Positions 255 through 4,129 of a stretch of 33,563 bases of DNA are shown one piece after another. The first letter of the stretch is position 1, and every line of letters starts with the position of its first letter. The stretch is from Chthonomonadia bacterium. GTDB taxonomy: Bacteria; Armatimonadota; HRBIN16. The stretch covers positions 1 to 33,563 of the forward strand of contig JABUFA010000037.1 of the NCBI GenBank assembly GCA_013314755.1, given 5' to 3'. The notes below the pieces were generated by a model. That model was not told the DNA's origin, did no database searches, and was given only the letters and a program-made list of their open reading frames with translations. Both the position numbers and the translations under genes were made by a program.

Positions 255-284
255 GGGCAAAGCGTCTGAGTATGCCGGTCAAGC
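255..284 (+). other. 5' strand of 23S processing stem
   Basis: GGGCAAAGCGT (255-265) is perfectly complementary to ACGCTTTGCCC (3955-3965). GGTCAAGC (277-284) is perfectly complementary to GCTTGACC (3941-3948). Together they form the long helix that brings both ends of pre-23S together and is normally cut by RNase III. The inner 8-bp part marks the mature ends, so it fixes the 23S boundaries used here. Confidence 0.85.
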
Positions 285-1413
285 TACAAAGGGCGCACGG
301 TGGATGCCTTGGGGCAAAGGGCCGATGAAGGACGCGGTAAGCGGCGAAACGCCTCGGGGAGCCGCAAACAGGCTTTGATCCGAGGGTCTCCGAATGGGGT
401 AACCCGGCCGTCGTAATAGACGGTCACCCACCGCTGAATCCATAGGCGGTGTGGAGGGCACCCGGGGAACTGAAACATCTTAGTACCCGGAGGAAAAGAA
501 AGCAGATGCGATTCCCCTAGTAGCGGCGAGCGAACGGGGAACAGCCCAAACCGATAGGGTGTCAAAGCGGGCAGCGTTGCCCTATCGGGGTAGTGGGACC
601 TGCCAGCGGGATGGCACCGTCCCGCAGGGAGTTACAAAATCGCCCGTTAGCAGAAGTGCCTGGAACGGCACGCCATAGAGGGTGACAGCCCCGTACGCGA
701 AAACGGAGCGATCTCCCGGCAGGGATCCCAAGTAGCACGGAGCACGAGGAACTCTGTGCGAATCTGCGCCGACCACGGCGTAAGGCTAAATACCCTTTGC
801 CACCGATAGCGCACTAGTACCGTGAGGGAAAGGTGAAAAGCACCCCGGGAGGGGAGTGAAATAGAACCTGAAACCGTGTGCCTACAAGCAGTCGGAGCCC
901 TCTCCAAAGGGTGACGGCGTGCCTTTTGCAGAATGAGCTGGCGAGTTACCGTACGCGGCAAGGTTAAGGCACTCAGTGCCGGAGCCGCAGGGAAACCGAG
1001 TCCGAATAGGGCGTTTAGTCGCGTGCGGTAGACCCGAAACCGCGCGATCTACCCATGGCCAGGGTGAAGCGGGGGTAAGACCTCGTGGAGGCCCGAACCG
1101 GTGTCGGTTGAAGACGGCTCGGATGAGCTGTGGGTAGTGTGGTGAAATGCCAATCGAGCGCGGAGATAGCTGGTTCTCCCCGAAATGCATTTAGGTGCAG
1201 CGTTGCGTGTTTTCTGCCGCAGGTAGAGCACTGGATGGGCTAGGGGCCTCACCAGGTTACCAAACCCAACCAAACTCCGAATGGCGGCAGATGAAGCGCA
1301 GCAGTGAGACTGCGGGGGATAAGCTTCGTAGTCGAGAGGGAAACAGCCCAGACCGTCCGCTAAGGTCCCTAAATGCGAGCTAAGTGTGAAAGGATGTGGA
1401 GCCACATAGACAA

Positions 1414-1444
<31 letters not shown>

Positions 1445-2243
1445 TAAAAAGTGCGTAACAGCTTACTGGTCGACGTGGCTCTGCGCCGATAATGTAAGGG
1501 GGCTCAAGCTCGCTACCGAAGCGACGGGTTCTCCCGAATGGGAGAGCGGTAGGGGAGCGTTCTGCATGCGGTGAAGCCAGAGCGTAAGCACTGGTGGAGC
1601 GTGCAGAAGTGCGAATGCCAGCATGAGTAGCGAGAAGATGGGTGAGAATCCCATCCGCCGAAAGCCTAAGGGTTCTCAAGGAAGGCTCGTCCTCTTGAGG
1701 TCAGTCGGGCCTAAGCCGAGGGCAATTGCCGTAGGCGATGGACACACGGTTGATATTCCGTGACCAGGCAGGCGCGTTTGTACGATGGGGTGACGCCGGG
1801 GAAAGCTCCAAGCGCGGGGTTGGTTGTCCGCGTTCCTTAGTTGGCGGTGTGCGGTAGGCAAATCCGCCGCACGTCAGCCGCTGGCTAAGGACGAGCCGCG
1901 GCTACGGCCAAGGCGAAGTGGGGCAGACTCCGGACGAGAAAAACCTCTAAGGAGTGCCTGTCCTGCCCGTACCGCAAACCGACACAGGTAGGCGAGTAGA
2001 GGATACTCAGGCGCGCGAGAGAACTCCCGTTAAGGAACTAGGCAAAATGGCCCCGTAACTTCGGGAGAAGGGGCGCCACCGCAAGGTGGCCGCAGTGAAA
2101 TGGCCCAGGCGACTGTTTACCAAAAACACAGCTCTCTGCGAAGCCGAAAGGCGACGTATAGGGGGTGACACCTGCCCAATGCCCGTAGGTTAAGGGGAGG
2201 GGTTCGGCGCAAGCCAAAGCCCCAAACTGAAGCCCGGGTGAAT

Positions 2244-2284
<41 letters not shown>

Positions 2285-2292
2285 AGTCGGGT

Positions 2293-3026
2293 AAGCCTGG
2301 ACTTGCCCCACTGCGCTGAAAAGTGCAGTGAAAAACCGGCTCATATCGGGGAAGCCCTCTCCAGACAGGAAGGGTAATCCCGAGGGAAGTTCCCGAACAG
2401 GGAACCCCGTAACGACTGACCCGAAAGGGGAGGCGCGCCGGAAAACGGTGCGCAAAATGCCGGTTCCTCGCCCCTTGCGCCAGCAAGGAAGTGGGGCCTA
2501 TGGAGGCTTGTGATGCAGGAAACAACGCACGCGCTGAACGGCTGGTACGTGACAGGACTTTGCGAAGGCGAAGCCTGCTTCTATGTGGGATTCGCCCTTC
2601 GTAAAAAGCTGAAAGTGGGCATCGAAACGCGCCCATCCTTCAGCCTGTCACTGAACCAGAAAGACCTGCGCCTTCTGCAAAGCGTCGAAGCCTATTTCGG
2701 ATGTGGCGGTATCCGCTACAGCCGAAGCGACCGTACCTACAAATACGAGGTGCGGTCCGTCCGAGACCTGGTGCGGAAAATCATCCCGCATTTTGAGCGG
2801 TATCCGCTTCAGGGCGCGAAAAAGGAAGACTTCGAACGCTTTGCCGACATCTGTCGGAAGGTGCATGCCAACCTTCATCTGAATCGCGAACATCTCAAAC
2901 AGATTATTGAGATAGCTTACGAGATGAACCGTTCGGGCGTGCGCAAGCATCAGAAACAAGACCTCCTAAGGGTACTCGGCGAGGAAAAGGGATAGTCTAC
3001 CACCTCTGGAAACAGAGGATATGGTG
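2293..3026 (+). other. group I intron in 23S rRNA, site L1951
   Basis: The 23S sequence breaks after GTCGGGT (U2292) and resumes at AAGTTCCGACC (3027), matching the uninterrupted E. coli GUCGGGU|AAGUUCCGACC at U1951 (my count, anchored on m5U1939). A P1 helix is visible: GGGUAAG (2289-2295) pairs with CUUGCCC (2302-2308), placing the last exon U (2292) in a U-G wobble with G2305, and the intron ends in G3026. A Q-like element GGGTAATCCCGAGG lies near 2370. Possible P7 strands are GACT 2414-2417 and AGTC 2994-2997, with the latter inside an S-like AAAAGGGATAGTCT. A P9-like hairpin CCTCTGGAAACAGAGG follows near 3003. An ORF for a homing endonuclease sits between the P7 halves. Known relative by site: Coxiella L1951. 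Confidence 0.9.
2513..2995 (+). CDS. LAGLIDADG homing endonuclease encoded in the 23S intron
   Basis: A 160-aa protein of the single-motif LAGLIDADG class, which act as homodimers that cut the intronless 23S allele and so spread the intron. The motif is VTGLCEGEA at residues 13-21. E20 stands in the catalytic acid position, with G15 and L16 at the helix packing positions. Only one copy is present, as in I-CreI-like enzymes. The start is ATG 2513, or GTG directly before it at 2510; GGAGG at 2502-2506 is well spaced for either. The gene must be translated from the rRNA precursor. Its stop TAG (2993-2995) lies inside the S-like element of the intron core, so coding and ribozyme sequence overlap. 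No frameshift is seen, so the enzyme looks intact. Confidence 0.9.
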   Translation: MQETTHALNGWYVTGLCEGEACFYVGFALRKKLKVGIETRPSFSLSLNQKDLRLLQSVEAYFGCGGIRYSRSDRTYKYEVRSVRDLVRKIIPHFERYPLQGAKKEDFERFADICRKVHANLHLNREHLKQIIEIAYEMNRSGVRKHQKQDLLRVLGEEKG

Positions 3027-3277
3027 AAGTTCCGACCCGCACGAATGGTGTAACGATCTGGGCGCTGTCTCAACGGGAGGCTCGGTGAAATTGTAGCACC
3101 GGTGAAGATGCCGGTTACCCACCGCAGGACGGAAAGACCCCGTGGAGCTTTACTACACCCTGGTATTGCGTTCTGGAGTAGTCTGTAGAGCGTAGGTGGG
3201 AGCCGCAAGGCGCCAATGGAACACCACCCTGACTATTCTGGGACGCTAACCCGAGCCGTTATCCGGCGAGGAGACAG

Positions 3278-3332
<55 letters not shown>

Positions 3333-3475
3333 CCAAAGCTTCCCTCAGCGTGGTCGGAAATCACGCGTCGAGTGTAAGGGCATAAGGGAGGCTGACTGTG
3401 AGACCGACTGGTCGAGCAGGGGCGAAAGCCGGGCCTAATGACCCTCTGGTGGCGTGTGGACGCGCCAGGGTTCAC

Positions 3476-3506
<31 letters not shown>

Positions 3507-3536
3507 GATCTTGCCCAAGCGCTCACAGCGACGGCA

Positions 3537-3578
<42 letters not shown>

Positions 3579-3585
3579 GAGCAGG

Positions 3586-3668
<83 letters not shown>

Positions 3669-3940
3669 GGTGGGCGCAGGAGGTCTGAGGGGAGCTGTCC
3701 CTAGTACGAGAGGACCGGGACGGACCGACCTCTGGTGTACCAGTTGTCCCGCCAGGGGCAGACGCTGGGTAGCTATGTCGGGTCGTGATAAGCGCTGAAA
3801 GCATCTAAGTGCGAAGCACACCCCAAGATGAGACCTCCCACGGGGTTAACCCGGTAAGGACCCCGGAAGACAACCGGGTGGATAGGCCGCAGGTGTAAGC
3901 ACGGTAACGTGTTCAGCCTAGCGGTACTAATAGTCCGAGG

Positions 3941-3965
3941 GCTTGACCATATTCACGCTTTGCCC
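3941..3965 (+). other. 3' strand of 23S processing stem
   Basis: GCTTGACC (3941-3948) and ACGCTTTGCCC (3955-3965) pair with 277-284 and 255-265 upstream of the gene. This closes the pre-23S helix. The next 44 nt to the 5S hold no other feature that I recognise. Confidence 0.85.
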
Positions 3966-4009: not shown

Positions 4010-4129
4010 TTCCTGGTGACCATGGCGGAGGGGAAACACCCGTTCCCATCCCGAACACGGCCGTTAAGCCCTCCAGCGCCGATGGTACTGGCGGGGCAAC
4101 CCGCTGGGAGAGTAGGACGTCGCCAGGAG
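4010..4129 (+). rRNA. rrf: 5S ribosomal RNA
   Basis: About 120 nt with the 5S hallmarks. The terminal helix is TCCTGGTGAC (4011-4020) with GTCGCCAGGA (4119-4128). The conserved CCCATCCCGAACACGG lies near 4046, and the GGGAGAGTAGG segment precedes the 3' strand. It lies about 60 nt after the 23S in the same direction and is followed at once by a terminator. Confidence 0.96.

Follow-up and report, generated by a model that had tools for sequence, protein, structure and literature searches.

Group I introns at the L1951 site of 23S rRNA have been described before. Table 1 of PMC1995217, the paper whose label for the site we use, lists one in Coxiella burnetii, 720 nt long and encoding a LAGLIDADG protein of 157 amino acids; the Coxiella precedent that a sequence-only reading of our DNA had named is thus in print. 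Other known hosts at this site are organelles, according to the accessible sections of the same paper, and CPR bacteria, for which the available text of the CPR survey PMC11270868 gives the 23S position as 1952. A second set of comparable systems comes from phage T4 introns, in which the ribosome-binding sites (RBS) of the endonuclease genes I-TevI, I-TevII and I-TevIII are hidden by RNA structure (PMC2988022 and PMC3073962, in their accessible parts). The locus described here very probably represents a mobile group I intron, with a homing endonuclease gene (HEG) in its P8 loop, that sits in the only 23S gene found in its assembly, excises itself, homes, has moved between phyla and was then inherited within a genus.

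The window, that is the whole stretch of DNA analysed, is a complete contig of 33,563 nt from a 3.95-Mb assembly that is 98.7% complete. It begins 276 bases 5′ of a 23S rRNA gene on the + strand (277-3950), and a 5S gene follows at 4012-4128. The Rfam model of bacterial LSU rRNA (RF02541, cmscan, 2750.7 bits) matches the 23S gene from its first to its last position (model 1-2925) despite a 734-nt insertion at 2293-3026 (+). When the end of the 5′ exon, GTCGGGT (2286-2292), is joined to the 3′ exon, AAGTTCCGACC (from 3027), the resulting sequence occurs once in rrlA of E. coli K-12, and the exon break lies after base 1952 of this 2905-base gene. We take the one-base gap between L1951 and 1952 to be the usual numbering offset. 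The single match confirmed the exact rejoining of the exons to conserved 23S sequence that had been noticed at first reading. Of the span given there, 2289-3026, bases 2289-2292 are exon, and the intron proper runs from 2293 to its final base G3026, as defined by exon rejoining, the group I model RF00028 and comparative boundaries.

The host is of the HRBIN16 type. HRBIN16 MAGs were assigned to Armatimonadota in the accessible text of PMC11071339, in line with the host suggested earlier, though bacterium HR16 is left unclassified in the NCBI taxonomy. The host is related to lineages known from hot springs. The 23S gene at 277-3950 is the only LSU match in the assembly, and the sole 16S match is found on a separate contig (C60, 373-1901). 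Two genus mates, G003 and G005, likewise have a single match each for LSU and for SSU. The intron must therefore normally be removed in these genomes, provided that repeats were not collapsed in the assembly, and to all appearances the genus manages with a single, interrupted 23S gene. In both genus mates the 16S and 23S genes lie on the same contig, separated by a gap of 514 bases.

With relaxed thresholds, RF00028 matched 2283-3019 over the whole model (1-253) with 28.6 bits and E=3.2e-5. This is below the curated gathering score of 50 bits, which is a database threshold and not a structural definition, and the model is for that reason missing from a scan at gathering level. On the whole genome the match reached only 14.5 bits (E=0.64). 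The covariance check proposed earlier thus gave a full-length match under the cut-off, and the Rfam score alone is suggestive, so that the comparative evidence is the stronger. In 25 genomes we found 25 introns between the identical two exon patterns, and G was the last base in all of them. For covariation, 23 of these introns were aligned, leaving out the near-copies L004 and L046, and double changes were compared with 1000 shuffles, a null that ignores shared descent. No shuffle equalled the double-change values of P2, P3, P4, P6a, P7.1, P7.2, P8 and P9.0, while P9 was equalled in 12/1000 and P1 in 4/1000. Further pair types rose above the shuffles in few helices, most clearly in P7.2 and P8, and not in P3 and P7.1. 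Pairing was weaker in P8 (66% of cells), P9 (70%) and P2 (72%).

P1 (2289-2308) is present letter for letter as first read, with 2289-2295 pairing with 2302-2308 and U2292 opposite G2305; this splice-site U-G pair is found in 23 of 23 introns, and 147/161 cells of the helix are paired. A possible guide for the 3′ exon, P10, can be read directly as six base pairs between 2299-2304 and 3027-3032 (108/135 cells), though no covariation was seen for it among the 23 introns. P2 (2309-2314 with 2325-2330) is paired in 79/110 cells, with 33 double changes against 13.6 in the shuffles. P3 (2335-2340 with 2459-2464; 122/135 cells) has 14 against 4.0, and P4 (2346-2350 with 2379-2383; 114/115 cells) has 20 against 8.3. 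P5, inside P4, is taken from the RF00028 alignment only and is outside the covariation count, its anchor having been missed. P6 (2384-2385 with 2407-2408) is paired in all 46 cells, and P6a (2389-2394 with 2400-2405) in 108/138, with 24 double changes against 10.6. P7, which we assume to have the guanosine-binding role, is formed by GACU at 2414-2417 and AGUC at 2994-2997 and is invariant (92/92 cells). Between the 5′ strand of P7 and the 3′ strand of P3 lie P7.1 (2420-2422 with 2427-2429; 13 double-change cells against 4.1) and P7.2 (2433-2436 with 2450-2453; 25 against 7.0). P8 pairs 2465-2472 with 2978-2985, and eight of the nine pairs tested (2464-2472) form in the free fold; over these nine pairs 131/197 cells are paired, with 25 double changes against 10.1. 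The 3′ end of the intron is closed by P9.0 (2999-3001 with 3023-3025; 56/67 cells; 17 against 5.3) and P9 (3003-3007 with 3014-3018; 77/110 cells; 14 against 7.4). All core helices, P3, P4, P6, P7 and P8, are thus present, with P6 and P7 paired in every cell and hardly variable. The minimum-energy fold lacked P1, P7 and P9.0, as can be expected from a pseudoknotted core. P7.1 and P7.2, presumably the mark of subgroup IA, point to an IA-like intron.

Intervening sequences that are removed by RNase III without ligation, leaving the 23S rRNA fragmented, are also known from bacterial 23S genes (PMC11270868, accessible text). For the insertion in the window this explanation is extremely unlikely, as such a sequence would not account for a group I core with covariation, the invariant U-G pair, the terminal G and an endonuclease gene. 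The covariance model, the covariation and the terminal G all support the group I intron at L1951 that had been proposed at first, and from its anatomy self-splicing is predicted.

Neither the gene for the endonuclease nor the way it overlaps the core of the ribozyme figures in the first reading. The open frame at 2510-2995 (+) holds 160 codons from ATG 2513, or 161 from GTG 2510; ATG 2513, six bases past a GGAGG, is the better start, giving a LAGLIDADG homing endonuclease gene at 2513-2995 in the P8 loop. Its last codons form the 3′ strand of P8, and its stop codon TAG overlaps the 3′ strand of P7. The protein matched PF00961 (LAGLIDADG_1) with 84.8 bits against a curated cut-off of 23.1 (E=9e-24), and in the PDB 66 sequences were matched at E up to 1, with LAGLIDADG chains from E=2.7e-39. 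The acidic motif residue E21, which we take to be catalytic, is invariant in 13 of 13 endonucleases. Among relatives, 11 of 13 pairs allowed dN/dS to be computed and gave 0.05-0.24; the other two were saturated. The gene is predicted to encode a single-motif LAGLIDADG_1 homing endonuclease that cleaves the intronless site.

From this anatomy, the intron RNA would free itself by cutting after U2292, the site chosen by the U-G pair of P1, and the exons would be joined at G3026. Going by what is known of the family, the LAGLIDADG protein, presumably as a homodimer, would cleave 23S genes without an intron where the two exons meet, with the intron copy as template for the repair. Alternatively, the protein might now serve mainly as a splicing helper (maturase) in an intron that has become immobile, the copies in the genus being inherited. 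Maturase-like activity has been described for the LAGLIDADG protein of the 23S intron of Thermotoga neapolitana (PMC3984707, accessible part), and the intron is present in all five genus genomes that have the genus-type 23S gene, as this alternative would predict. The intact motif and the purifying selection fit either role, but spread across phyla requires mobility at some time, and we regard a protein of this kind as unlikely. Both roles can coexist in the same protein.

Another genus mate, G001, was considered as an intronless relative. Its RpoB is 92% identical to that of the window genome and its 23S fragment is empty at L1951. However, this fragment shows 83.3% identity to the 23S gene of the window, against 97.9-98.5% in the other four genus mates, and its best single piece shows 91% over 922 bases. 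The G001 23S fragment may be misbinned or mosaic, and because of this discordance it was set aside and not used as an empty-site relative. No match to the 23S query was found in G006-G009.

We then looked at where introns of this lineage occur. A scan of genome contigs returned nine loci, all at L1951: HRbin16, three Anaerolineae or Anaerolineales MAGs, Ca. Thermoflexus, one MAG titled Proteobacteria, one Moraniibacteriota MAG, one Margulisiibacteriota MAG and one labelled only as bacterium. Whole-genome searches of Armatimonadota matched the endonuclease in 11/291 genomes; in five of these, all of the window's genus, it lies at L1951. In the phylum of the Anaerolineales MAG 19/400 genomes had a match, and five of them contain an endonuclease-bearing L1951 intron; for the Moraniibacteriota MAG the phylum gave matches in 66/286 genomes, and of the 30 loci returned at least eight were at L1951. 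Relatives of the Proteobacteria-labelled MAG had matches in 7/294 genomes, and L1951 was occupied in that MAG only. All 13 matches with E ≤1.1e-49 in the Anaerolineales- and Moraniibacteriota-phylum searches were at L1951. Introns without an ORF are undercounted, since the searches ask for the protein. The lineage of the window intron also occupies L1951 in MAGs labelled Chloroflexota, Patescibacteria and others, where all phylum names apart from that of the window come from record titles and binning can mislabel rRNA contigs. One genome from the phylum of the Anaerolineales MAG (G531) harbours an ORF-less, group I-like insertion of 242 nt at L1951, a compact relative that would be useful for ribozyme work.

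In an endonuclease tree of 60 rows, built by a quick method without bootstrap, the sequences sorted into five site groups with four changes, the minimum possible. The site labels are derived from exon patterns, and several L1931 rows also fit the L1923 pattern; the near-copy G574 was omitted, and the other rows were picked by hand from the returned loci. The 24 L1951 rows (23 distinct) stand on one side of a branch with SH-aLRT 86, in a tree that does not contain Coxiella. Within this group, the window and its four genus mates group together (support 99), and outside the genus the window comes closest to the Anaerolineales copy G291, in a part of the tree that is partly unresolved. Long branches were flagged at L1923.

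RpoB served as a yardstick. The window and its four genus mates share 90-92% identity in RpoB and 80-84% in the HEG, whereas the comparison with G291, G293, G294, G295 and G574 gave 61-69% for the HEG and 46-55% for RpoB. Little or no HEG excess was seen in G298 (55 vs 52) and G507 (51 vs 51), and G292, G296 and G297 yielded no RpoB. For these values RpoB was the longest open frame per fetched locus, in some cases cut at the locus end, and identities were summed over BLAST pieces. The HEG changes faster than RpoB within the genus and is yet closer across phyla, and transfer therefore fits. An intron that predates the split of the phyla and was inherited vertically with many losses could also explain a presence scattered over several phyla, and it would agree with the two of seven foreign genomes in which the endonuclease is barely or not at all closer than RpoB. 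Such ancient inheritance is nevertheless very unlikely, since the HEG, for all its lower conservation inside the genus, is closer than RpoB in the other five, and since the endonuclease-bearing L1951 introns found among 291 Armatimonadota genomes all belong to a single genus. The horizontal spread suggested at first reading is thus upheld by an endonuclease tree that sorts by site and by the comparison with RpoB, the latter in five of the seven foreign genomes for which both proteins were available. The lineage would have moved between phyla at a single site and later been inherited within the genus.

Further insertions were observed in the 23S genes of these genomes. G005 has a second insertion of 918 nt (1787-2704 of L031) downstream of L1951, also present in G003 (L032), and in G005 it holds an open frame of 227 amino acids with a LAGLIDADG-like motif by eye. 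A second intron of G004 (L012, L017) precedes the L1951 intron by 34 exon bases; it lies at L1917 and encodes an endonuclease of its own, which clusters with other L1917 proteins. An extra L1931 insertion is found 20 exon bases upstream in L006, L007, L008, L009, L045, L046, L067 and L068, so that the two share a 20-base exon. Other Armatimonadota (L018-L024) have 23S insertions at L1923, at L1931 and further downstream, and the 23S gene of G212 (L018, L023) has at least four.

The start region of the endonuclease gene in the window (2502-2515, +) is engaged in a long-range helix. The RBS GGAGG (2502-2506) and the start codon AUG (2513-2515) pair with the 3′ coding stretch of the same gene at 2948-2966 (+). 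In the free fold of 2281-3038 (758 nt), the pairing probability was 0.99-1.0 for 2502-2510 and 2512-2515, and at position 2511 pairing was divided between two partners. GGAG/CUCC pairing had a probability above 0.8 in 13 of 14 folded introns, which were chosen for having both anchors (L005, L010, L065 and L066 are not among them). For eight introns chosen for an A-bulge form of the helix, with the 5′ register of L045 moved by one base to fit, the next five pairs were formed with the own partner in 38/40 cells and with partners from other lineages in 158/260.

Duplex energies were calculated for 18 of 22 introns, as L047, L048, L070 and L071 have no anchor on one or both sides; among the 18, L005, L010 and L066 seem to be wrongly anchored on the 5′ side. 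The own partner was the best among the sampled downstream stretches of the own intron in 12/18 and lay below the mean of the foreign partners in 17/18, while in 12/18 one or more foreign partners, those of near relatives counted among them, were stronger than the own one. After random synonymous recoding of the 3′ coding stretch in 16 introns, an equally stable helix was obtained in 3-59/1000 cases in 13 of them (window: 26/1000) and in 101-324/1000 in the remaining three. Three introns gave no support to the helix beyond chance: L005, L065 and L009, the last with a fold probability of at most about 0.2. A motif expression for comparing the helix at other sites missed 16/20 L1931 and 1/4 L1917 rows. 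Covariation and the controls support the pairing itself, and from it we infer a regulatory role.

With the RBS and start codon paired to the gene's own 3′ coding end beside P8, translation would be turned off once the intron is fully transcribed. That the helix acts in this way, so that ribosomes spare P8 and P7, seems to us evenly poised. The helix might instead be a mere extension of P8 that serves the RNA fold and contains the RBS by accident, a reading to which we give slightly less than even weight. By our reading of the sequences, seven introns (L006, L007, L012, L045, L067, L068 and L069) keep the helix while the likely RBS lies downstream of it, as a structural extension would allow; the lock is therefore not universal. 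In the window, on the other hand, both RBS and start codon are within the helix, and in L002, L003, L008, L014 and L015 the GGAG strand likewise appears to double as the RBS. Phage T4 introns use such locks as well (PMC2988022, accessible part). Taking the helix as a lock, we propose, more tentatively and with some doubt, that the L1951 introns contain a built-in timer. The start would be open only during transcription of the intron and be locked by the gene's own 3′ end once formation of P8 and P7 becomes possible. Within a gene whose RNA is otherwise untranslated, the output of endonuclease would thus be set by a race between ribosome loading and transcription; compensatory changes would have kept the lock in several host lineages. 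A scan of 2200-3060 for promoter-like sites gave none. The helix offers a testable answer to how an rRNA gene tolerates a translated gene within a ribozyme.

The site, the intron class and the protein family are already known (PMC1995217 and PMC11270868, accessible parts). Our literature search found no paper joining a group I intron with Armatimonadetes; papers that pair Armatimonadota, intron and 23S rRNA deal with other subjects, judging by titles and the beginnings of abstracts, and in the Chloroflexota literature none of the matches listed mentions a group I intron. Hence the host record in Armatimonadota appears to be new, and the kind of intron is not. The extended host range claimed earlier stands for this record but was overstated, given that L1951 hosts beyond Coxiella were known from CPR bacteria and organelles. 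A long-range helix that buries the translation start of the endonuclease also appears to be new: in the papers found, by a search that is weak on subscription journals, locking of RBS and start codon by the gene's own 3′ end is not described. Our data reveal one site-bound rRNA intron lineage in several bacterial phyla, one of them mostly uncultured, and between some of these phyla there are indications of transfer.

Compared with the Coxiella burnetii intron, for which the published table row of PMC1995217 is the basis, the window intron shares the site and the LAGLIDADG gene and is similar in size (720 nt and 157 amino acids vs 734 nt and 160 amino acids), but it resides in another phylum. 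The LAGLIDADG_1 insertions at position 1952 of CPR/Patescibacteria (PMC11270868) share the E. coli rrlA site and the protein domain with it; they too belong to another phylum, and the accessible main text of the survey makes no mention of Armatimonadota. At least eight genomes from the phylum to which the Moraniibacteriota MAG belongs have both the L1951 site and the endonuclease clade in common with the window. In contrast, the endonucleases of L1931 and L1917, the sites of the introns of Thermotoga, Synechococcus and Simkania, form separate clades, in a tree that does not include the sequences of these organisms. The T4 endonuclease genes named at the outset lie in the introns td, sunY and nrdB. 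As in our intron, the 3′ end of the I-TevI gene overlaps the ribozyme core (PMC2988022 and PMC3073962, accessible parts), and a td hairpin mutant splices less efficiently (PMC2988022, accessible part). The T4 introns differ in that they use an upstream hairpin and a late promoter, whereas here the translation start pairs with the 3′ coding end of its own gene, at a distance of about 450 nt.
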